Of a DNA stretch of 38,202 bases, positions 7,167 to 17,205 are shown one piece after another. Under the pieces are notes generated by a model. It saw only the letters and a program-made list of their open reading frames with translations, searched no databases and was not told where the DNA came from. The stretch covers positions 1-38,202 of IMG/VR virus record IMGVR_UViG_3300007363_000044; one strand, written 5' to 3'. A program made the translations under genes and the position numbers. This DNA comes from a virus. Within the stretch, counting starts at the first letter, position 1. Each line of letters begins with the position of its first letter.

Positions 7167-7484
7167 TCAGGTGGCCCGGCCCAGCACGATGGCGCGCGCG
7201 ATTGCGATGGTCTCGACGGCGTTGGTCGACGCCACGCCCAGGACGTGCGCCACCATCAGCTCGCGCGTCGGCTGGTCGTCGATCGCCTCGAGGTGCACGG
7301 CCTCGGCGGTCTTGAAGTGCTGGAACACGGTGCGCACCGAGCAGTCGGCACGGTCGGCGATGGCAACCACCGGCGGCCGGAAGTCACCAGCACACATGAG
7401 CTCGCGGCACGCCGTGAGCACGGCCGCGCGGGCGCGCTGGCCCCGCATGCTGCGGCCGTCGGCGGGCGCGGCGAGCGTTTCCAT
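7167..7484 (-). CDS. TetR-type DNA-binding domain protein without ligand domain
   Basis: The 105-residue product matches the N-terminal DNA-binding region of TetR regulators: RAAVLTACRELMCAGDFRPP, then VVAIADRADCSVRTVFQHFK, where A-D-R-A-D-C-S-V-R-T-V-F-Q-H-F is the recognition helix. A normal TetR protein is about 200 residues. This one ends after one or two helices of what would be the ligand/dimer domain. The ATG at 7484 overlaps the Cro-like stop (ATGA). It is the second gene from the immunity promoter and probably tunes early or late expression. Confidence 0.7.
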   Translation of the reverse strand: METLAAPADGRSMRGQRARAAVLTACRELMCAGDFRPPVVAIADRADCSVRTVFQHFKTAEAVHLEAIDDQPTRELMVAHVLGVASTNAVETIAIARAIVLGRAT

Positions 7485-7717
7485 CAGGCGGCCGTCCGGC
7501 GGGGCTGGCGGCGCGCCGCGCGACGAGCCTTGGCGCGGCCGGCGGCAATGAAGGCTCGGACCTCGTCCAACTTGCGGACCGTGATCTCGCCGCCCTCGCG
7601 GATTCGCCGGACGAACTTCCCGTCCTTCGCGACCGCCTGAGAGAAGGCGGCCTCGGACATGGAACAATCACGACAAAAGGCTTCGATTTCTGCGACAAGC
7701 GAGCGGAGCGTGGACAT
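7484..7717 (-). CDS. Cro-like early regulator
   Basis: The 77-residue protein belongs to a short DNA-binding type common in alphaproteobacterial prophages: a helical pair with MSEAAFSQAVAKDGKFVRRI (residues about 20-39) and a very basic tail (AKARRAARRQPRR). It is divergent from the CI-like repressor and is the first gene of the leftward operon, the position of cro. The start codon (7717) follows the predicted -10 by only about a dozen bases, so the message may be almost leaderless; GGTGGGG just upstream could serve as ribosome site if the start lies further back. Confidence 0.7.
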   Translation of the reverse strand: MSTLRSLVAEIEAFCRDCSMSEAAFSQAVAKDGKFVRRIREGGEITVRKLDEVRAFIAAGRAKARRAARRQPRRTAA

Positions 7718-7724
7718 GCCCCAC

Positions 7725-7752
7725 CGTAAACGGGACCTATCCCGCCGGTCAA
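7725..7752 (-). promoter_or_regulatory. leftward early promoter (pR-like)
   Basis: On the minus strand TTGACC (7752-7747) is followed after 17 nt by TTACGG, or after 16 nt by TTTACG. The GGGA-CCTA-TCCC operator (7732-7743) fills the spacer, and a second operator touches the -35. Binding of the repressor here would shut off the Cro-like gene and the whole leftward operon. The -35 is good and the -10 weak. Confidence 0.5.
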
Positions 7753-7799
7753 GGGGACTGTTCCCGCTTACTCACAAGGCATGAGCGTGGGACATTCCC
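7732..7799. promoter_or_regulatory. operator cluster A: three GGGA-N-TCCC sites
   Basis: Three near-identical palindromes lie between the divergent Cro-like and CI-like genes: GGGACCTATCCC (7732-7743), GGGACTGTTCCC (7754-7765) and GGGACATTCCC (7789-7799, one base shorter). The third ends 3 bases before the CI-like start codon. It could overlap that gene's own -10, which would give negative autoregulation. A matching cluster lies beyond the repressor at 8818-8863. Confidence 0.8.
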
Positions 7800-7802
7800 G
7801 CT

Positions 7803-8513
7803 ATGAACGACTGGTTGAAAACTGAGCTCCGGCGCGTGATCGAGGAGAAGGGTCTCGACGCCAAGAGCTGGAGCATCGCCGCCGGGCAATCGGCGACCTA
7901 CGTGCGCGACATCCTGCGCGGCAGGTCCAGGAAGCCGGCGGCCGACGGCCTGCGCAAGCTCGCAGAGGCCGCAGGGTACGATGCCGGACACTTCGTGCGG
8001 TCCGAGAACGCCGATGCAACCGACGGCAGAGAAACTTTTTCATCGAACGTGCAGCGATCAATTGACGCGCCCGCGCTTCCTGTGATCCGATCACTGAATA
8101 GTGATGTGCCTCTGTACGGCACGGCTATGGGGGGCTCGGGGAATGGGGATTTCGAGATGAACGGGGCCGTAATTGGCTACGTTCCACGCTTGCCCGGCAT
8201 AGAAGGCCGGCGGGATGTCTTCGCGTTGAACGTGGTCGGCGACTCGATGTCGCCCTGGCGCAGGCCGAATGGCCTGATCTACGTCGAAGAAAAGCGGGCC
8301 GCATCGGTCGGCGACCATGTCGTCGTCGAGCTGGTCGCGGAAGACGGGTCGCCGGTGCGGCCGGCGCTCGTGAAGCAGCTGCTGTCGGTGTCTGGGTCGA
8401 AGATCAAGCTCGGCCAGTACAATCCGAAGGCGGTGATTGAGATCGACCGGCGCCGTGTGCACCGGATCTACCGCGTCCTCGAGTGGGACGATCTTCTGAA
8501 GGGCGCGCTGTAG
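7803..8513 (+). CDS. CI-like repressor, HTH plus S24 (LexA-type) protease domain
   Basis: The 236-residue protein has an N-terminal helix-turn-helix (residues about 18-50, SWSIAAGQSATYVRDILRG) and a C-terminal S24 domain. The catalytic Ser is S148 in VVGDSMSP and the partner Lys is K191 in ALVKQLL. The self-cleavage site is expected around A108-M109-G110 in YGTAMGGSG; most relatives have Ala-Gly there, and here a Met intervenes. RecA-stimulated self-cleavage would induce the lytic cycle. The ATG at 7803 has no ribosome site, with an operator ending 3 bases upstream, so a leaderless message like lambda cI is likely. Base composition is less GC-rich than the flanking operons. Confidence 0.9.
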   Translation: MNDWLKTELRRVIEEKGLDAKSWSIAAGQSATYVRDILRGRSRKPAADGLRKLAEAAGYDAGHFVRSENADATDGRETFSSNVQRSIDAPALPVIRSLNSDVPLYGTAMGGSGNGDFEMNGAVIGYVPRLPGIEGRRDVFALNVVGDSMSPWRRPNGLIYVEEKRAASVGDHVVVELVAEDGSPVRPALVKQLLSVSGSKIKLGQYNPKAVIEIDRRRVHRIYRVLEWDDLLKGAL

Positions 8514-8517
8514 TCGG

Positions 8518-8775
8518 CTACCTCGTCGCCAGGTAGACTACAACCACCGCGACAACCAGGACAATGCCGGGGAAGACCACGGCGAAGCCGCCACCGCGGG
8601 CTGCGCCGGCCGCGGCTGGCTGCCTGGGCGCCATGCCGATCGCGATCAGCAGGCCGACCAGCGGCAGCAGGAAGCCGAGCAGAAAGTAGCCGAAGAACGA
8701 GCGGTTCTTCGAGCTGGCGATGGCGCCCGCGCCGATGGCGGCACCCAGCCACGCGAACAGTCCGACGAACTCCAT
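8518..8775 (-). CDS. small membrane protein, candidate superinfection-related
   Basis: The 85-residue protein has about three membrane segments: residues 3-20 (Gly/Ala-rich), 27-48 (FFGYFLLGFLLPLVGLLIAI) and 65-83 (AVVFPGIVLVVAVVVVYL). A short charged loop, SSKNRS, lies between the first two. GGGGAGGG stands 8 nt before the ATG at 8775. It is convergent with the repressor and has its own promoter (8801-8828), over which an operator-like site lies. Many temperate phages place small membrane proteins beside the repressor to block superinfection or modify the envelope; the function here is not shown. Repressor control would make it an induction-phase gene rather than a lysogenic one. Confidence 0.75.
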   Translation of the reverse strand: MEFVGLFAWLGAAIGAGAIASSKNRSFFGYFLLGFLLPLVGLLIAIGMAPRQPAAAGAARGGGFAVVFPGIVLVVAVVVVYLATR

Positions 8776-8800
8776 GGGCGATCCCTCCCCTTCCGGCGTC

Positions 8801-8828
8801 AGTATAGACCAGCCCTGTGGACTGTCCC
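8801..8828 (-). promoter_or_regulatory. promoter of the small membrane protein gene
   Basis: On the minus strand GGGACA (8828-8823) and TATACT (8806-8801) are separated by 16 nt, with the ATG 26 nt beyond the -10. The -10 is strong. The -35 coincides with the operator-like TGGACTGTCCC (8818-8828), so the repressor would compete with RNA polymerase here. Confidence 0.55.
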
Positions 8829-8863
8829 GGAGGGATTAGTCCCTTGACAGCGGGACTGCTCCC
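8818..8863. promoter_or_regulatory. operator cluster B: three repressor-site copies
   Basis: Three copies of the cluster A palindrome occur within 46 bases: TGGACTGTCCC (8818-8828, one mismatch), GGGATTAGTCCC (8832-8843) and GGGACTGCTCCC (8852-8863). They sit between the leftward membrane-protein promoter and the rightward recombination-operon promoter. A repressor bound here would control both, which parallels the lambda OL/OR arrangement. Confidence 0.8.
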
Positions 8864-8873
8864 ATCACATCAT
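8844..8873 (+). promoter_or_regulatory. rightward early promoter (pL-like)
   Basis: A perfect TTGACA at 8844-8849 is followed after 18 nt by CATCAT (8868-8873). The operators at 8832-8843 and 8852-8863 flank the -35, and the second fills most of the spacer. It would drive the long plus-strand operon from 8993 to the integrase. The -10 match is only moderate. Confidence 0.6.
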
Positions 8874-8992
8874 CCCGCCCGTTCCCGGCCCGACCGCCGG
8901 TGACCGGCGCGGAGCCGACCTCCGCACCATCGCGAAAGCCGGGCCGGCCAGCCCCACAACCAGCCGGCCTGGCGAGCGAGCGGGGGACCACC

Positions 8993-9223
8993 ATGCAAGC
9001 CCTGAATCCGGGGAGCCGCATCGTTCACAGCATGTACGGCCGCGGCCGTCTTTGCCTGATCGACGCCACCAACCAGCACGCCTTCGTGCAGATCGACGAC
9101 GAGCCCGGCCGCCGCCGCGTTCGCCTGCGCGACCTGCTGCCCGAGCCCGACCGGATGCCGCCGAACAGCGCCCCGCCGCTCCCGCCGATCCGGTCGCCGT
9201 ACCGGCTACTGGTGGTGCGCTGA
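8993..9223 (+). CDS. small beta-barrel (Tudor/SH3-like) protein
   Basis: The 76-residue product begins MQALNPGSRIVHSMYGRGRL and continues FVQIDDEPGRRRVRLRDL. The spacing of G-x-R-I-V-H, Y-G-x-G and the later V-x-I-D / R-V-x-L-R-D-L matches the Tudor-like barrel found at the C-terminus of UvrD/Rep helicases, which contacts RNA polymerase. That is a by-eye fold analogy, not a family assignment. The start is ATG 8993 after GGGGGACCACC; a GTG at 8900 in the same frame is less likely. It is the first gene after the operator-controlled promoter. Confidence 0.55.
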   Translation: MQALNPGSRIVHSMYGRGRLCLIDATNQHAFVQIDDEPGRRRVRLRDLLPEPDRMPPNSAPPLPPIRSPYRLLVVR

Positions 9224-10891: not shown

Positions 10892-11046
10892 ACACCCGGC
10901 GCACCGACCCCGACTCGCTGCGCTGCATCGTCTGCCACGAGCGGTTCTACAGCTGGGCCGAGGTCACCGATCACGAGGCCCAGCACCACCGCCAGAATCG
11001 TCAACCCGAACCGACCGAGAAGGAAACAGCCCATGCAGATCAGTGA
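10888..11046 (+). CDS. C2H2 zinc-finger miniprotein (52 aa)
   Basis: The frame starts at TTG 10888, overlapping the previous TGA, and runs 52 codons into the exonuclease gene. Residues 13-33 fit the classical C2H2 finger exactly in spacing: C13-x2-C16-x3-F20-x5-V26-x2-H29-x3-H33, with H34 as an alternative ligand. In the eukaryotic consensus V26 is usually Leu. The N-terminus is Arg-rich and the C-terminal third is Gln/Glu/Pro-rich and probably disordered. Classical C2H2 fingers are rare in bacteria and phages. Here one could bind DNA or serve as a protein dock, possibly for the recombination proteins encoded next. No Shine-Dalgarno is evident, so coupling is needed. Confidence 0.65.
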   Translation: MNTRRTDPDSLRCIVCHERFYSWAEVTDHEAQHHRQNRQPEPTEKETAHADQ

Positions 11047-11986
11047 ACCCGGCCTTTACCCGGACGTGCCCGAGGCCGACTACCACGCCGACCCGGTGGT
11101 GACGCCGTCGCTGTCGTCCTCGATCCTGAAGACGCTGGTCAGCCGGTCGCCGCGCCACGCCTGGTACGATCACCCGCGGCTGAACACTGCGATCGCCGAC
11201 GAGCCGGAGAAGCCGAGCCGCGCCATGAACATCGGCACGGCGGCGCACAAGCTGATCCTCGGCCGAGGGCGCGACATCGTCGAGATCGCGGCCGACGACT
11301 TCCGCAGCAAGGCGGCCCAGCAGGCGCGCGACGCTGCGCTGGCCGCCGGCCACGTCCCGGTGCTGGCCACCGACATGGCCTCCGTGAAGCAGCTCGCCGA
11401 GGCGGCGCGCGAAGGGATCGACGGCACCGAGCTCGCGGGCGTCTTCGACGAGGGGCTGGCCGAGGTCACCGCCGTGTGCCGCGACCCGTTCGGCAACTGG
11501 CGGCGCATCCGGGTCGACTGGCTGCCGGCCGCGTCCATGAGGGGCGGCCACATCCTCGCGGTCGACGTGAAGACCACCGGGAGCAGCGCGGCGCCGGAGG
11601 ACTGGCAGCGCACCGCGTTCGACATGGGCTACGACATCCAGGCGGCGTTCTACAGCCAGGTCCTGACCGCGGTGCTGCCGGACGTCCGGTCGGTGACGTT
11701 CAAGTTCCTGACGATCGAGCAGGCCCCGCCGTTCGGCGTGTCGGTGCACGAGTTCTCGGGGCAGGCTCACTTCGAGGCCGTCGAGCTGGTCGAGCTCGGG
11801 TCGCGGATGTGGGCGACCTGCATGCAGCGCGGCGTGTGGCCGGGCTACACGACCGAGACCACCCACATGGACCCGCCGAAGTGGCGGACCGAGCGCGCCG
11901 AGATCCGCAAGCTGGCGATGTTCCGCCGCCTGGAGGCGTGGCAGGCCCCGCTCGAGGTCGATGCCAAGCGGCAGGCGGCGGAGTAG
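11033..11986 (+). CDS. PD-(D/E)xK exonuclease, RecE/exonuclease VIII-like
   Basis: The 317-residue protein shows a PD-(D/E)xK nuclease core: H72 in GTAAHKLIL, E144, D162 in RVDWLP, then D178-V-K180 in AVDVKTT. A following YDIQAAFYSQ motif (Q203, Y207, Q209) is typical of the RecE/Cas4/AddB group. It would resect 5' ends of linear DNA to give single-stranded 3' tails for phage recombination. AAGGA lies about 8 nt before ATG 11033. The gene overlaps the zinc-finger frame by 14 nt and is followed 4 nt later by a P-loop ATPase gene. Confidence 0.85.
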   Translation: MQISEPGLYPDVPEADYHADPVVTPSLSSSILKTLVSRSPRHAWYDHPRLNTAIADEPEKPSRAMNIGTAAHKLILGRGRDIVEIAADDFRSKAAQQARDAALAAGHVPVLATDMASVKQLAEAAREGIDGTELAGVFDEGLAEVTAVCRDPFGNWRRIRVDWLPAASMRGGHILAVDVKTTGSSAAPEDWQRTAFDMGYDIQAAFYSQVLTAVLPDVRSVTFKFLTIEQAPPFGVSVHEFSGQAHFEAVELVELGSRMWATCMQRGVWPGYTTETTHMDPPKWRTERAEIRKLAMFRRLEAWQAPLEVDAKRQAAE

Positions 11987-11990
11987 CACC

Positions 11991-12929
11991 ATGCCCGACA
12001 CTCTCCCGAGCTTCTCGTTCCAGCCGGCCCGGCGGCAGGGCGTCGGCCTGTTCGTCGGCGTGGCCGGCGGCACCGGCAGCGGCAAGACCTTTTCGGCGCT
12101 GCGGATCGCCCGCGGCATCGCAGGCCCGAACGGCAAGATCGCCGCGATCGACACCGAGGCGCGGCGGATGTCGCACTACTCCGACCGCTTCAAGTTCGAC
12201 GTCGCCGACCTGGCGCCGCCGTTCCGGCCGGAGCGTTTCGCCCAGGCCGCCGAGGCTGCCGAGAAGGCCGGTTACGCCGTGCTGGTGATCGACAGCATGA
12301 CGCACGAGTGGGCGGGCGAAGGTGGCGTCCTGGACTGGCACGACCAGCTGAAGGGCGACGACGAGCGCCAGAACATGCGGGCGTGGATCAAGCCGAAGAC
12401 CGCGCACAAGGCGATGATCGGGTCCTTCCTGCAGCGCCGCATCCCGCTGGTCTTCTGCTTCCGGGCCGAGGAGAAGGTCAAGGTCGGCGCCGGCGGCAAG
12501 CCCGAGCCGCAGGGCTGGATGCCGATCGGCGACCCGCGCTTCATGTTCGAGCTGACCACCATGCTGACGCTGTCGAACGAGGCGCCCGGGCTGGTGTCTT
12601 ACAAGCTGCCACGGAAGATCCAGGAGCAGCACCTCGCGATGTTCCCGGACGGCAAGCCGATCACCGAGCAGGCCGGCGAGCAGCTGGCTGCCTGGGCGCG
12701 CGGTGACGAGCCCGTCGACAAGGCCGTCGAGATCGCCGACCAGCTGGTCAAGCTGGCAGCCGATGCGGCGACCGAGGACGCCCTCCTGAACTGCCACGCG
12801 GGCGAGAAGGAGGCGAAGCAGATGGCCGCCCTGAAGTCGCGGCGGCCCGAGCTCTACAAGCGGGTGAACGACGCCGTCGAGGCGCGGCGGGCGGCGCTGC
12901 AGGGCCAGGCCGACGGTGCATCGCGATGA
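11991..12929 (+). CDS. P-loop ATPase, Sak4-like recombination protein
   Basis: The 312-residue protein carries Walker A G26-G-T-G-S-G-K-T33 and Walker B VLVID ending at D101, followed by SMTHEW. A RecA-fold core occupies residues about 18-235. The last 70 residues (about 245-305) form a helical tail in which KSRRPELYKRVNDAVEARRA resembles the C-terminal domain of Red-beta/RecT/Erf annealing proteins. Sak4 proteins are phage RecA-fold recombinases that cooperate with a nuclease and SSB. The adjacency to the exonuclease supports that role. ATG 11991 has GGAG upstream. Confidence 0.7.
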   Translation: MPDTLPSFSFQPARRQGVGLFVGVAGGTGSGKTFSALRIARGIAGPNGKIAAIDTEARRMSHYSDRFKFDVADLAPPFRPERFAQAAEAAEKAGYAVLVIDSMTHEWAGEGGVLDWHDQLKGDDERQNMRAWIKPKTAHKAMIGSFLQRRIPLVFCFRAEEKVKVGAGGKPEPQGWMPIGDPRFMFELTTMLTLSNEAPGLVSYKLPRKIQEQHLAMFPDGKPITEQAGEQLAAWARGDEPVDKAVEIADQLVKLAADAATEDALLNCHAGEKEAKQMAALKSRRPELYKRVNDAVEARRAALQGQADGASR

Positions 12930-13081
12930 ACTCCACCATCGCGGCGATATGCGTCATCCTCGTGGCCCTGTTGCTCGCCAAGGCCTGCGAGTCTGTTCGC
13001 CCAGGGCTCGACTGCCGAGTGCTGATCGGCGGCTGGCATCCGGACGTGCCGGCGCGGATTGCCGAGAAGTGCCGGCCATGA
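12926..13081 (+). CDS. single-pass small membrane protein (51 aa)
   Basis: ATG 12926 overlaps the ATPase stop (ATGA). The N-terminus MNSTIAAICVILVALLLAKA is one hydrophobic segment. The remaining 31 residues hold three cysteines (C21, C30, C49), so the protein is probably a signal-anchored or secreted peptide. If C21 were lipid-modified the preceding LAKA would be an unusual lipobox. No family is recognised. Confidence 0.6.
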   Translation: MNSTIAAICVILVALLLAKACESVRPGLDCRVLIGGWHPDVPARIAEKCRP

Positions 13082-13398
13082 ACATCGCCACCTTCCGCCC
13101 CGCCTCGCTGCAGGCACAGCTCGCCGAACTGAAGCGCGAGCGGTCCATGCGCGCGAAGGTCTACCCGCACTTGATCGCCAGCGGGAAGCTGGACCGCAAC
13201 ACCGCCGACTACCAGACGCGCGGGCTCGACGGCGCGATCGTCACGCTGGAGCGGCTGGTCGCGGCCGAGCTGCGCGGGGAGCCGGGCCGGAAGGAGCTGG
13301 TCGACCTGCTCCGCGACGTGCGCCGCCAGGCGCGTGGCGAGGACGTGCCCGACCTGCAGCAGCGTCTCGACGCCGTTCTGACGAGGATTCCAGAATGA
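13078..13398 (+). CDS. hypothetical helical phage protein (106 aa)
   Basis: ATG 13078 overlaps the previous stop. The protein is nearly all helix and highly charged: SLQAQLAELKRERSMRAKVY, then a segment with ADYQTRGLDGAIVTLERLV. The phrase about a conserved Tyr-Pro and Gly-Lys-x-Asp turn (YPHLIASGKLD) recurs in small phage proteins near recombination genes, but no function is known to me. Confidence 0.6.
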   Translation: MNIATFRPASLQAQLAELKRERSMRAKVYPHLIASGKLDRNTADYQTRGLDGAIVTLERLVAAELRGEPGRKELVDLLRDVRRQARGEDVPDLQQRLDAVLTRIPE

Positions 13399-13592
13399 CC
13401 TACCCCTACCCGCCGATTTCCGCCGCCCTGTCGGCCCGGCTGAAGGCTATAGCCCTCACGGCCGAGGCGATCGCTGCCTCGGCCCGCCGGGTTGGCACTG
13501 TGTACGACGGTGCCTGGCTCGAACATGCGAGGGCACAGCACAAGGTGCTGGGCGAGATGCTGGCTGTCGCCGAGAAGGGCGGTGCCGAATGA
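13395..13592 (+). CDS. hypothetical protein (65 aa)
   Basis: ATG 13395 overlaps the previous stop (ATGA) and the frame ends in an ATGA overlap with the J-domain gene. After MTYPYPPISA the sequence is an Ala-rich amphipathic helix pair (SARLKAIALTAEAIAASARR; HARAQHKVLGEMLAVAEK). No domain is recognised. Confidence 0.55.
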   Translation: MTYPYPPISAALSARLKAIALTAEAIAASARRVGTVYDGAWLEHARAQHKVLGEMLAVAEKGGAE

Positions 13593-14239
13593 CCGACGCC
13601 ACCCGATACCCGTTGTCGTGGCCCCTGGGCTGGCCCCGCACGCCGGACGGCAGCCGGAAGCCGACCCGTTTCACCGGCACCAGCTATGGCACCTACTCGA
13701 GCGGCGGCAGTTATCGCCGCTCTCGCGAACTGACGATCGCCGAGGCTCGCAACCGACTCGACGGCGAACTCGAGCGGCTGGGCGCGCGCGACGTACTGCT
13801 GTCGACGAACGTCGAACTGACGACCTACGGCGAGCCTCGCAGCGGCCGGCGCCCGCCGCAGGACCCGGGCGTCGCGGTCTACTTCCGGCTGAACGGCAAG
13901 GACCGCGTGCTGGCCTGCGACCGCTGGACGTCGGTGGCCGGGAACATCGCGGCGATCGCGGCCCACGTCGAGTGCATCCGGGGCATCGACCGCTACGGCG
14001 TCGGCACGCTCGACCAGGCGTTCGCGGGCTATGACGCCTTGCCGCCGCCGGGACCAGCGAAGCGGTCGTGGCGTGATGTCTTAGGGCTGGCCGATCAAGT
14101 CACGCCGATCACCCGCGAGAAGATCAGCGACGCCTATCGCTTCAAGGCGCAGACGGCGCACCCGGACCGCGGCGGCAGCCACGACGCGATGGCCGAGCTG
14201 AACGAGGCGCGCGAGCAGGCACTGAAGGAGATCGGCTGA
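13589..14239 (+). CDS. J-domain (DnaJ-like) phage protein
   Basis: The 216-residue protein ends in a J domain (residues about 160-216): WRDVLGLADQVTP, a helix YRFKAQTA, the essential HPD at 191-193 with R-G-G following, and a final helix MAELNEAREQALKEI. The first 150 residues form a separate region with a segment ending YFRLNGKDRVLACDRW and Trp/Tyr-rich motifs that I do not recognise. The J domain would recruit host DnaK, for instance to remodel replication complexes as lambda does. A separate gene at 15404 encodes a DnaJ-type zinc finger. Confidence 0.8.
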   Translation: MTDATRYPLSWPLGWPRTPDGSRKPTRFTGTSYGTYSSGGSYRRSRELTIAEARNRLDGELERLGARDVLLSTNVELTTYGEPRSGRRPPQDPGVAVYFRLNGKDRVLACDRWTSVAGNIAAIAAHVECIRGIDRYGVGTLDQAFAGYDALPPPGPAKRSWRDVLGLADQVTPITREKISDAYRFKAQTAHPDRGGSHDAMAELNEAREQALKEIG

Positions 14240-14757
14240 TGGCCAGCGCCGACGCCGCCCACCTCCGCGCCCAGAAGCGCGCCAGCACCGACCCCGAGCG
14301 GCTCGAGCGCATGGCGCGCAGAGAGGAGACGAAGGCGATGACCGACGAACAGAAGGAAGCGGTGGAGTGGTTGAAGGAAAAGGCGGACGTTCGCGTTTAC
14401 GCCCGCACCATCCTCGCCATGCTGGCCGAGCCGAGGCTGCCGAGGCCGGAGGATGTGCCGGATGAAGTGCTGGACAAAATGAGCGACGCCTACAGTCGAA
14501 GCGATATGGCCGGGAACCTTAGCCGCGACATGATGCGCGCCGCCCTCAAGGTTCACCGCGACCACTACACCGCGCCGCGCGTCAAGGATATGTGGCGCGT
14601 TTCCTACGTCGATAAGTGGGGCAAGCTGCACGAGCACCACTTCGACACGCTGGAAATTGCGACGCCGAACTATTTGGCGAGCGCCAACAACGTGCACTAC
14701 CGCGACGCCAAGTTGTCCGGCCCGCACCAGCAGGAGGTCCCCGATGACGCGCGCTGA
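14239..14757 (+). CDS. hypothetical protein with duplicated N-terminal block
   Basis: The 172-residue frame starts at ATG 14239, sharing one base with the J-domain stop (TGATG). Residues 1-33 (with STDPERLERMARREE) are homologous to the start of the zinc-finger protein at 15404. From Met34 (MTDEQKEAVEWLKEKADVRV) the sequence changes character, looks like an independent protein, and is less GC-biased than neighbouring genes. A fused or acquired reading frame is the simplest reading. The C-terminal part is rich in His/Tyr and ends before a 39-nt gap. No function is assigned. Confidence 0.6.
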   Translation: MASADAAHLRAQKRASTDPERLERMARREETKAMTDEQKEAVEWLKEKADVRVYARTILAMLAEPRLPRPEDVPDEVLDKMSDAYSRSDMAGNLSRDMMRAALKVHRDHYTAPRVKDMWRVSYVDKWGKLHEHHFDTLEIATPNYLASANNVHYRDAKLSGPHQQEVPDDAR

Positions 14758-14796
14758 CCGCCGCCGCTCTCCGCGCCATCGCACAGGAGGCCCGCA

Positions 14797-15411
14797 ATGA
14801 CTGACACCACGACAGACGCGCTGGTGGAGCGGTTGCGCGACCTGCTCTGCAAGGCAACGCCGGGGCCGTGGCAGGCCACATACGAAGAAGGGACCAAGCT
14901 GCGCGATGAACACGGCGACCTGATCGGATGGTTGTCCCACACCCATCTTCGGGGCCGACGTCCGAGCAACGAGGTCAACGCCAACGCCGCCCTGATCGCG
15001 GAACTCCGCAACGCCGCGCCCGCCCTGCTCGACACCATCGCCGCGCTGAAGGCTGAGAACGAACGGCTCAAGGAGCGGCTGGAAATCAACCACGCCTATC
15101 AGGTCGTGGACGGAAAAATGCAGCGTGTCGAGGCCGACATGTCTGACTATGACGGCATCTACTGCCGCGACGAGACAATCCGCTTGCAGAAGCGAGAACT
15201 CGACGCGCAGGCCGCCCGGATCGCCGCGCTGGAGCGCAGCGCAGCTTTCCACCGCGATGCCGCAGACCAACAGGATATTGCGCTGGCTGCAAAGCAAGAG
15301 CGGATCGTCGCGCTGGAGGGCGCGCGCACCACGGCCATTAAAATGCTGGAGGACGACCTGCCGGGGCTGGCGTTGCAGGAACTTCTCGACGCGGGAGGGA
15401 CCAATGGCTGA
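14797..15411 (+). CDS. Ead/Ea22-like family protein
   Basis: The 204-residue protein contains the phage Ea22-like signature: LVERLRDLLCKATPGPWQA near the start, and NAALIAELRNAAPALLDTI at about residue 63. A long coiled coil follows (AALKAENERLKERL, RELDAQAARIAALER, KQERIVALEGAR). AGGAGG sits 7 nt before ATG 14797. Ea22-type proteins are encoded in the pL-side accessory region of lambdoid phages and are of unknown function. In the 50 bases before it there is a fragmentary frame that looks like a decayed small gene. Codon use is less GC-extreme than in flanking genes. Confidence 0.7.
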   Translation: MTDTTTDALVERLRDLLCKATPGPWQATYEEGTKLRDEHGDLIGWLSHTHLRGRRPSNEVNANAALIAELRNAAPALLDTIAALKAENERLKERLEINHAYQVVDGKMQRVEADMSDYDGIYCRDETIRLQKRELDAQAARIAALERSAAFHRDAADQQDIALAAKQERIVALEGARTTAIKMLEDDLPGLALQELLDAGGTNG

Positions 15412-15505
15412 CGACGCCGAGCAGCTGCGGGCGCAGATCCCGAGCAGCACCGACCCCGACCGCCTCGAGCGAATGGCGCGCGAGGAAGAACAGCGCGAAG
15501 GCAAG
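15404..15505 (+). repeat. duplicated N-terminal coding block (partner 14239-14340)
   Basis: The first about 100 bases of the zinc-finger gene align with the first about 100 bases of the gene at 14239. Both encode S/T-D-P-D/E-R-L-E-R-M-A-R, with the best-conserved core around CAGCACCGACCCCGA. The copies have diverged by point changes. They bracket a roughly 1 kb segment with softer GC bias. A second short repeat, GACCAATGGCTGA, occurs at 15399-15411 and 15589-15601, at the starts of two successive genes. Confidence 0.7.
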
Positions 15506-15601
15506 ACGTGCCCTCGGTGCTTCGGGCTAGGCGGACATGCCGAGACGTGCCGGAGGTGCCTCGGGACGGGGCGCGTCGCACAGGAGCCGACCAATGGCTG
15601 A
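15404..15601 (+). CDS. DnaJ-type zinc-finger protein (65 aa)
   Basis: The product carries two CxxCxGxG motifs: C36-P-R-C39-F-G-L-G and C49-R-R-C52-L-G-T-G. Two such motifs make one zinc site of the DnaJ central cysteine-rich domain, which contains four motifs and two zinc ions. The N-terminal 33 residues are the duplicated charged block. GGAGGG precedes ATG 15404, which overlaps the previous stop by 8 nt. With the J-domain protein at 13589, this gives separated DnaJ parts in one operon. Small CxxCxGxG proteins also occur alone in phages, so a direct partnership is inferred. Confidence 0.75.
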   Translation: MADDAEQLRAQIPSSTDPDRLERMAREEEQREGKTCPRCFGLGGHAETCRRCLGTGRVAQEPTNG

Positions 15602-15842
15602 TCGCGTCGACGCCTATCCGCCGCGCGGCCTGTCCCGCGACGAGGCCGCCCGCTACATCGGCATCGGCCCAACCCTGTTCGACGAGCTGGTGCAGGCCGG
15701 CCGGATGCCCCGACCCGTCCGCATCGGCAAGCGCGTGATCTGGGACCGGCTGAAGATCGACGCCGCCTTCGCCGATCTCGGCGCCGACGACCGGGAGAAC
15801 CAGGTCGACCGTGCCTTGCGGTTGGTCCCAGCGGGACGGTAG
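15594..15842 (+). CDS. xis: AlpA/excisionase-like DNA-binding protein
   Basis: The 82-residue protein has the AlpA/MerR-type winged-helix pattern: GLSRDEAARYIGIGPTLFDE, then a segment with VQAGRMPRPVRIGKRVIWDR. This is typical of phage excisionases and prophage AlpA regulators. It stands 11 nt upstream of the integrase gene, so directing excision is the likely role. ATG 15594 overlaps the stop of the zinc-finger gene by 8 nt, repeating the same ACCAATGGCTGA junction used one gene earlier. Confidence 0.75.
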   Translation: MADRVDAYPPRGLSRDEAARYIGIGPTLFDELVQAGRMPRPVRIGKRVIWDRLKIDAAFADLGADDRENQVDRALRLVPAGR

Positions 15843-15848
15843 CGTCCC
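15833..15848. promoter_or_regulatory. palindrome at the excisionase/integrase junction
   Basis: GGGACG-GTAG-CGTCCC has perfect 6-base arms around a 4-base centre. It overlaps the excisionase stop codon and ends 5 bases before the integrase ATG. The half-sites GGGA and TCCC match the repressor operator, but the spacing is 8 rather than 3-4. It may be a protein site or an RNA hairpin that limits integrase translation; no other ribosome site is evident for the integrase. Confidence 0.5.
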
Positions 15849-15853
15849 CACCC

Positions 15854-16987
15854 ATGACCGACATCCCCTTCGTCTCCTCCTACAAGGACCGGCACGGCCG
15901 CCTGCGGTGGCGCTACAGGCGCAAGGGCGTCTCGGTCGCCCTCCCGGGCCAGCCGGGCGACGAGGCCTTCCAGCGGGCCTATGAGGCCGCCCAGCAGGGC
16001 CGTCCGAAGCGGGCCGAGGTTGTCCGCCATCCCAACCACGCCCGGCCCCAGACGCTGAAGGCGGCGTGGCGCCACTACGCCCAGCACGACGCCGACTTCC
16101 GGCGGCTGCGGTCCACCACCCGCGACCAGTACATCGCCCGGGCCGAGCGCCTGCTGGCGATGCGGGTTGCCGACGGCGATCCCCTGACCTGGGCCGACGT
16201 CCCCCTGCCTGACCTCCGGCGCCGCCATGTGAAGGCGCTGCTGTCGCGGATGTCGGATCGGCCGCACGCCGGGGCGGACGCCCTGATCGTGCTGCGCAAG
16301 ATGATCATGGTCGGCCTCGACCTTGAGTGGATACAGCACGACCCGACCCACATGCTGCGATACCGGCCGACGATCGAGGGGCACCGGGCATGGACCGATG
16401 GCGAGCGCGCCCAGTTCGAGGCCCGCTACCCGATCGGCACGATGCAGCGGACGATCTACGCCCTCGCCCTCTACACCGGCCAGCGCCGGTCGGACCTCGT
16501 GCGGATCTCGTGGCGCGACGTCGCCGGCGATCGCCTGGCGCTGACCCAGCAGAAGACCGGCAAGCGGCTGGTGCTGCCGATCCTGCCGATGCTGCGGGAG
16601 GCGCTCGACGGCGCGCCGCGGCACGGCGAGCTGGTGACGGCCACCGAGGACGGCCAGCCGCGCTCCGCCGAGGGCCTGACGAACGACTGGGCGCGCTGGT
16701 GCCGATCGGCGAAGCTGTCGGGCACCACGCTGCACGGCCTGCGGAAGACGCTGGGCAAGCTGCTCGCGGAGACCGGGGCGACCACGCGCGAGCTGATGGA
16801 CGTGCTGGGCCACGACGCCATCGCGCACGCCGAGCTCTACAGCCGGGCGGCCGACCAGGAAGCGATGGCGAAGGCTGGGCTGGAGAAGGTCGAGTCTCGC
16901 CTCCGGGTTGTGGCTGGCGAACCTCGTGGCGAACCTTCTGGCGCACCTAGGCCTAAGTCATTGAAGCCATTGAGGCGTGTCAAATGA
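15854..16987 (+). CDS. int: tyrosine site-specific integrase
   Basis: The 377-residue protein has all expected catalytic residues: R211 in YTGQRRSDL, K234 in QQKTGKR, H294 and R297 in LHGLRKT, H320 in LGHD, and the nucleophile Y329 in AELYSR. An Arg-rich N-terminus (residues 11-24) could bind arm sites. A SAM-like core-binding domain occupies about 65-160, and the catalytic domain about 175-345. It catalyses attP x attB recombination and, with the excisionase, the reverse. The reading frame ends in a low-complexity tail whose DNA holds two TGGCGAACC repeats of the putative attP. Its position at the end of the recombination operon next to attP is as in lambda. Confidence 0.92.
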   Translation: MTDIPFVSSYKDRHGRLRWRYRRKGVSVALPGQPGDEAFQRAYEAAQQGRPKRAEVVRHPNHARPQTLKAAWRHYAQHDADFRRLRSTTRDQYIARAERLLAMRVADGDPLTWADVPLPDLRRRHVKALLSRMSDRPHAGADALIVLRKMIMVGLDLEWIQHDPTHMLRYRPTIEGHRAWTDGERAQFEARYPIGTMQRTIYALALYTGQRRSDLVRISWRDVAGDRLALTQQKTGKRLVLPILPMLREALDGAPRHGELVTATEDGQPRSAEGLTNDWARWCRSAKLSGTTLHGLRKTLGKLLAETGATTRELMDVLGHDAIAHAELYSRAADQEAMAKAGLEKVESRLRVVAGEPRGEPSGAPRPKSLKPLRRVK

Positions 16988-17078: not shown

Positions 17079-17111
17079 GATTCAACCGGCGGGCGGTGGC
17101 GACCGGACACG

Positions 17112-17146
17112 AAAAAGCGCCCGCCCCGGGGTCACCGAGGCGGGCG
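17112..17146 (-). terminator. terminator of the late operon (possibly bidirectional)
   Basis: On the minus strand CGCCCGCC / GGCGGGCG form an 8-bp stem with a 13-nt interior, followed by CTTTTT. It ends the leftward structural and lysis operon after the holin gene. Read from the plus strand the same stem is followed by TTCAAGTTT, so it may also stop transcription coming from the integrase operon. Confidence 0.75.
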
Positions 17147-17205
17147 TTCAAGTTTAGGGAGGAAACGCCCTCGTCGGGCACTCGACGTCGGAAGGGCCGA
17201 CCGCC

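Follow-up and report, generated by a model that had tools for sequence, protein, structure and literature searches.

In bacteriophage lambda, three operators are found on each side of the repressor gene cI; OR1-3 are located between cI and cro, and OL1-3 precede the recombination/int operon. The lambda operators are non-identical sites of 17 bp, the cI transcript is leaderless, and OR2 is found near position -42 of PRM. The two clusters are separated by about 2.3 kb (PMC5880393). The rexAB genes are co-directional with cI. The C repressor of Rhizobium phage 16-3, a temperate phage of alphaproteobacteria, likewise has operators on both sides of its gene, although with an operator word (ACAA/TTGT) that is unlike the one reported here. 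Four operators have been named in that phage, oL1, oL2, oR1, and oR2 (PMC12429752). In the lambdoid PaaR2/YdaS switch of CP-933P, a divergent CI/Cro-type pair is arranged over overlapping operators, and the repressor transcript was shown by 5' RACE to be leaderless (PMC8630535).

The window analyzed here is an entire virus record of 38,202 bases, which was scanned for the pattern GGGA-N3/4-TCCC. Six palindromes of this kind flank a gene for a CI-like repressor. They are very probably the operators of that repressor, and probably of a cro-like protein as well, within a mirror-image version of the bipartite lambda-type immunity region. The locus adds a further example to the lambda-type immunity regions, and the mechanism itself is not new. 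The coordinates given for the six sites in the original prediction were all found to be exact; five sites are perfect matches and the sixth, at 8818-8828, has one mismatch. The sites and the gene that they flank are as follows.

7732-7743: OR1-like candidate operator GGGACCTATCCC, 12 bp, N4, between the -35 and -10 boxes of the cro-side promoter
7754-7765: OR2-like candidate operator GGGACTGTTCCC, 12 bp, N4, against the -35 of the cro-side promoter
7789-7799: OR3-like candidate operator GGGACATTCCC, 11 bp, N3, ending 3 nt from the repressor ATG
7803..8513, plus strand: CI-like repressor, 236 aa, with an N-terminal HTH and a C-terminal S24 peptidase domain (Ser148, Lys191)
8818-8828: OL3-like candidate operator TGGACTGTCCC, 11 bp, N3, one mismatch, over the -35 of the membrane-gene promoter
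8832-8843: OL2-like candidate operator GGGATTAGTCCC, 12 bp, N4, directly adjoining the -35 box of the right promoter
8852-8863: OL1-like candidate operator GGGACTGCTCCC, 12 bp, N4, in the -35/-10 spacer of the right promoter

The proposed repressor matches PHROG_4 (transcriptional repressor, 6.7e-13) and Peptidase_S24 of Pfam (PF00717; E 1.9e-6, 28 bits versus a cut-off of 23.3), and the Ser148 and Lys191 pair expected of an S24 domain is invariant in alignment A3. The Pfam search of the repressor gave no HTH match. The N-terminal HTH is seen in matches to HTH profiles and in a structural model, in which the first 60 residues form four helices (residues 3-16, 20-26, 33-38, and 47-56) with pLDDT values of 85-93; the remainder of the protein has no confident model. 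The third helix begins at TYVRD, and the recognition helix is TYVRDIL (residues 32-38). The nearest solved folds to this model are HTH domains of the XRE/SinR/434/P22 c2 type, with weak E-values, and a sequence search of the PDB with the repressor found no relative. Where an Ala-Gly (or Cys-Gly) self-cleavage site would be expected, the window repressor has GTAMGGSG, compared with GTAAGS in RR1-A, which places Met-Gly or Gly-Gly at that position.

The genes surrounding the repressor and its sites are listed below.

7484..7717, minus strand: cro-like small HTH protein, 77 aa, with KFVRRIREG in the recognition helix (PHROG_7669, weak)
8518..8775, minus strand: small membrane protein of 85 aa, encoded convergently to the repressor (PHROG_8436, weak)
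11033..16987, plus strand: right-hand early operon, from the RecE-like exonuclease to the integrase
11033-11986, plus strand: RecE-like exonuclease
11961-12929, plus strand: AAA protein
15537-15842, plus strand: AlpA-type excisionase or regulator
15854-16987, plus strand: integrase
17104-17186, minus strand: suhB/mmgR sRNA, full-length Rfam match (RF00519, 44.4 bits), 117 bp past the integrase gene

The order is therefore cro-like HTH gene (minus strand), OR1-3, cI, small membrane gene (minus strand), OL3-1, and then recombination, xis, and int (plus strand). As in lambda, cI is flanked by two sets of three operators (candidates here), with a divergent cro-like gene across OR and the operon for recombination, xis, and int across OL. 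Beyond the cro-like gene, the minus strand has genes for a RuvC-like resolvase, for a methyltransferase, and for a primosomal protein; those for terminase, capsid, portal, tape measure, and endolysin are also on the minus strand, at the record's far end. Relative to lambda the gene order is thus mirrored (late and replication genes, cro, OR, cI, OL, recombination, xis, int). The operator cores are 12 or 11 bp (GGGA-N4/3-TCCC) rather than 17 bp, the clusters are 1,078 bp apart, a convergent small membrane gene is present instead of the co-directional rexAB, and the two repressors have no close sequence similarity. The sites are non-identical, as in lambda, and a leaderless repressor transcript is likely here too. 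CP-933P is comparable in its divergent pair over overlapping operators, but its host, proteins, and operators are different. The phage is temperate, with a host probably among the alphaproteobacteria.

The assignment of the gene at 7484..7717 as cro-like is suggested by its position and by an HTH-like model of four helices (pLDDT 82), for which the Foldseek matches are weak (E of ~0.5 or more); a homologue with 27% identity is found at the equivalent place in L020. The membrane gene encodes a hydrophobic product, has a good Shine-Dalgarno sequence, and has its promoter under the weakest operator. It is a candidate for a superinfection-exclusion gene expressed in lysogeny. The suhB/mmgR match possibly represents the phage (attP) copy of an mmgR gene that serves as the integration site in the host.

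The genome-wide motif scan, which had been proposed as the first check on the original prediction, gave five exact copies of the motif, none of them outside the two intergenic stretches that flank the repressor gene. The raw count is modest (five versus 2.0 expected from dinucleotide shuffles), and because 6 of 100 shuffles also reach five, the excess itself was discarded as evidence. All five exact sites, however, are confined to the intergenic DNA on the two sides of one gene, a total of 303 bases in which the expected number is 0.004-0.016 (P ~1e-11 or less). Paired clusters were also scanned for with all 4-base arms and spacers, using a Poisson score; the real score was 15.3, and the highest score reached in 100 third-order shuffles was 11.1. 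An earlier statistic without a correction for base composition was dropped, since GC-rich arms dominated the shuffles. One-mismatch copies elsewhere in the record are below the chance expectation, and the repressor is flanked by two clusters of a motif that is absent from the rest of the record, as is characteristic of a lambda-type immunity region. The modest raw count would suit inverted repeats that arose by chance or from the composition of GC-rich DNA, but this explanation is made extremely improbable by the clustering, by the absence of the motif elsewhere, and by its conservation in equivalent positions in distant relatives.

Protein-pattern scans of the viral and genome contig collections with the single repressor gave no match. 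The closest named phage proteins are 27-35% identical to it, which makes the sites that they share informative. The repressor gene of MinM1 (35% identity), found by protein similarity, is preceded by three GGGA-N4-TCCC sites at -72, -49, and -14 from its ATG, compared with -70, -48, and -13 in the window, and the junction TCCC-GCN-ATG is common to both. Agrobacterium phage Rivra has three sites ahead of its repressor gene and two or three behind it. Rivra resembles the window in having GTGGGA-N4-TCCCAC both upstream and downstream, a TFLRD helix, and an operator in the -35/-10 spacer; it differs in that its repressor is 27.8% identical and all of its sites are N4. The same layout of two clusters is found in phage RR1-A with another operator word (GCGTA...TACGC). 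In RHph_I3_18 and RHph_Y25 the homologous protein carries the annotation 'repressor protein C', a point of resemblance to phage 16-3, and repeated words other than GGGA/TCCC are found on both sides of its gene.

The geometry of the sites was also searched for by DNA alone in the viral and genome collections, using a 19-base pattern in which two closely spaced sites precede NNN-ATG. Among the 116 oriented matches, 20 have an ATG that starts a repressor of the window family; the other 96 are not repressors, as expected for a 19-base pattern in a large collection. One geometry match, in Roseomonas (L095), was rejected as chance, there being no repressor at the locus. In all 20 repressor loci a gap of 3 nt separates the third site from the ATG, and the second site is at approximately -49 to -51. 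These loci are from phage contigs and from genomes of Komagataeibacter, Bombella, Parasaccharibacter, and Rhodoblastus. Conservation of both position and sequence in relatives, together with the match to the recognition helix presented below, strongly supports the proposal that the flanked CI-like repressor has its operators at these sites, in OR- and OL-like clusters.

Many Komagataeibacter species have loci (L041, L083, L042, L074, and others) for an orthologous repressor in which the HTH is followed by a long insert, with two or three GGGA-N4-TCCC sites upstream; this repressor may be a domesticated regulator or may belong to a widespread prophage. Three loci (L138, L140, and L142) encode short proteins (~120-130 aa) with the same HTH and no recognizable S24 domain, with operators upstream and a second cluster downstream.

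The relationship between the sites and the repressor was examined in loci picked by protein only. The first set was obtained by whole-protein similarity from the family of Roseomonas mucosa (G001, L095), the Acetobacteraceae, and with the addition of loci from 385 genomes chosen by HTH profile the total came to 85. An exact site is located at most 160 bp upstream at 12 of the 14 loci with a helix of the form [TS][YFW][VL][RH]D and at 5 of the 71 others (Fisher P 4e-9, a value that counts related loci equally, several being orthologues from about eight lineages, for a signature first noticed on some of the family members and counted afterwards). Two or more upstream sites are found at 9 of the 14 signature loci and at none of the 71 others. 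GGGA with N4 ranked first among 2,560 combinations of arm and spacer, and the wider operator consensus is RTGGGATANNTCCCAY. Signature locus L157 has no upstream site, and L140 has one-mismatch sites only.

In these comparisons, the presence of the operator tracks the repressor's own HTH. This bears on an alternative in which the divergent cro-like protein, or some other HTH factor, is the main reader of the sites and the CI-like protein binds elsewhere. The recognition helix of the cro-like protein (KFVRR) does resemble TYVRD of the repressor, which would fit a shared operator. However, the Acetobacteraceae repressors that are closest in the S24 domain (42-44%) have a different HTH and no GGGA clusters, whereas those with a TYV[RH]D helix have GGGA clusters, even where the protein is short and lacks S24. 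We consider this alternative very unlikely, and the CI-like repressor is retained as the protein predicted to bind the sites.

Three promoters were predicted to be overlapped by the two clusters. These, and the leader that follows the rightmost of them, are listed below.

7725..7753, minus strand: cro-side (PR-like) promoter, TTGACC-17-TTACGG, weak -10, recognized from the sequence
8828-8801, minus strand: membrane-gene promoter, GGGACA-16-TATACT (-10 at 8801-8806), from the promoter scan
8844..8873, plus strand: right (PL-like) promoter, TTGACA-18-CATCAT (-10 at 8868-8873), from the scan, 10/12 matches
8878..8994, plus strand: structured leader of the right-hand early transcript (z -4.28)

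Two of the three, both sigma-70-like, were recovered in the scan, but the cro-side promoter was under the scan threshold. Its position equals that of better promoters in relatives, the Rivra equivalent being TTGCAA-17-TATAAG. The minus strand of the cro side reads GGGAACAGTCCC-CTTGACC-GGC-GGGATAGGTCCC-GT-TTACGG, which corresponds to an operator, the -35, an operator in the spacer, and the weak -10. The same order of operator, -35, operator, and -10 is common to MinM1, L020, L013, L041, and Rivra, the last with a good TATAAG. The candidate operators therefore overlap early promoters, as called by sequence consensus alone.

The repressor mRNA is likely to be leaderless, given that the third site ends 3 nt before the ATG in a conserved geometry and that a Shine-Dalgarno sequence is absent. 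The OR3-like site covers the presumed repressor -10 (GACATT, 7791-7796), and relatives have a 12-bp site there. In RR1-A, TATAAT is found 7 nt ahead of the repressor ATG. Were the transcript to start further upstream, GGGA at 7789-7792 could have a weak Shine-Dalgarno role. The ATG of the cro-like gene (7717) is ~7 nt past its presumed -10, with a similar arrangement in MinM1 and Rivra, and thus both divergent transcripts may be leaderless.

Like that of the window, the leaders are strongly structured at L007 (5092-5200, z -4.4) and L006 (5855-5962, z -5.3). The fold consists of a long inner hairpin inside an outer stem, the 3' side of which contains the ribosome-binding region of the first gene. 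By analogy with the lambda N leader, the right-hand leader may control translation or processing.

The weakest of the six sites is that at 8818-8828. Its mismatch, and a center that is 14.5 bp from that of OL2, suggest that it may not be a separate operator, and 25.8 one-mismatch N3 sites are expected in the window by chance. A five-site system such as that known for phage 933W (PMC10742460), with OR1-3 and OL1-2 real and 8818-8828 a chance near-match at the membrane-gene promoter, is a possibility of some weight, if a somewhat improbable one. Against it, 8818-8828 keeps a perfect 9-bp palindrome, GGACTGTCC, at the correct location, and three right-hand sites are apparent in L138/L142 and in Rivra.

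Among the 25 upstream sites of the signature loci, 23 have N4 and two have N3, and spacers of 0-9 are otherwise absent; N4 is therefore the standard operator. Within the clusters of the window, N3 is found at the third site of each (OR3 and OL3) and nowhere else. An 11-bp third site is also present in the Bombella-type loci L058 and L082, and an 11-bp second site in the Komagataeibacter-type locus L145. The variation in spacer had been called unusual, and it is indeed rare within this operator family, but tolerance of spacer length has precedents. One of these is reportedly found in part of the literature on the phage 16-3 repressor. The HTH regulator ArdK represses operators whose inverted repeats are 3 or 4 bp apart and, at different effective doses, direct repeats spaced by 3-5 bp (PMC9723621), which makes an effect of N3 versus N4 on affinity reasonable. 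Spacer length as an affinity setting is thus plausible. A more specific proposal is that N3/N4 is a graded setting, in which a one-base spacer deletion at OR3 and OL3 would weaken repressor binding and either set the autoregulation point or give Cro a preferred site, with the operator family readable from TYVRD; as a whole, we consider it rather doubtful.

For binding, filling order, autoactivation, the leaderless start, the role of Cro, and looping, we infer the following scheme. In a lysogen, repressor dimers would occupy OR1/OR2 and OL1/OL2, which lie within the -35 boxes of the two early promoters or directly beside them. The filled operators would silence the leftward operon (cro-like, replication, and late genes) and the rightward operon (recombination, excision, and integration). 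The center of the OR2-like site is 43.5 bp upstream of the repressor ATG, comparable to the position of OR2 in lambda, and relatives have a site at the equivalent place. A dimer bound there may aid RNA polymerase at the weak and probably leaderless repressor promoter. OR3 and OL3, being 1 bp shorter, are presumably weaker and would be filled last. As the 11-bp OR3 overlaps the repressor promoter, its occupation could cap repressor synthesis, or it could serve Cro.

Looping between OR and OL over 1.08 kb is possible; this would be a workable loop length, and paired clusters recur across several lineages. There is nearly an even chance that each cluster is instead repressed independently, with no bridge between them. 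MinM1 apparently has the left cluster only, a right-hand cluster not being visible within 1.3 kb, and the promoter overlaps could be explained by local repression alone.

No description of a GGGA-N4-TCCC operator was found in the literature searched. The comparisons presented here point to a rule that connects a recognition-helix motif to an operator word in a group of alphaproteobacterial prophage repressors, including those of the acetic acid bacteria. The natural N3/N4 variants provide a small testable system for the effect of half-site spacing on operator affinity, and the helix-operator rule would allow immunity groups and prophage induction circuits to be read from sequence.
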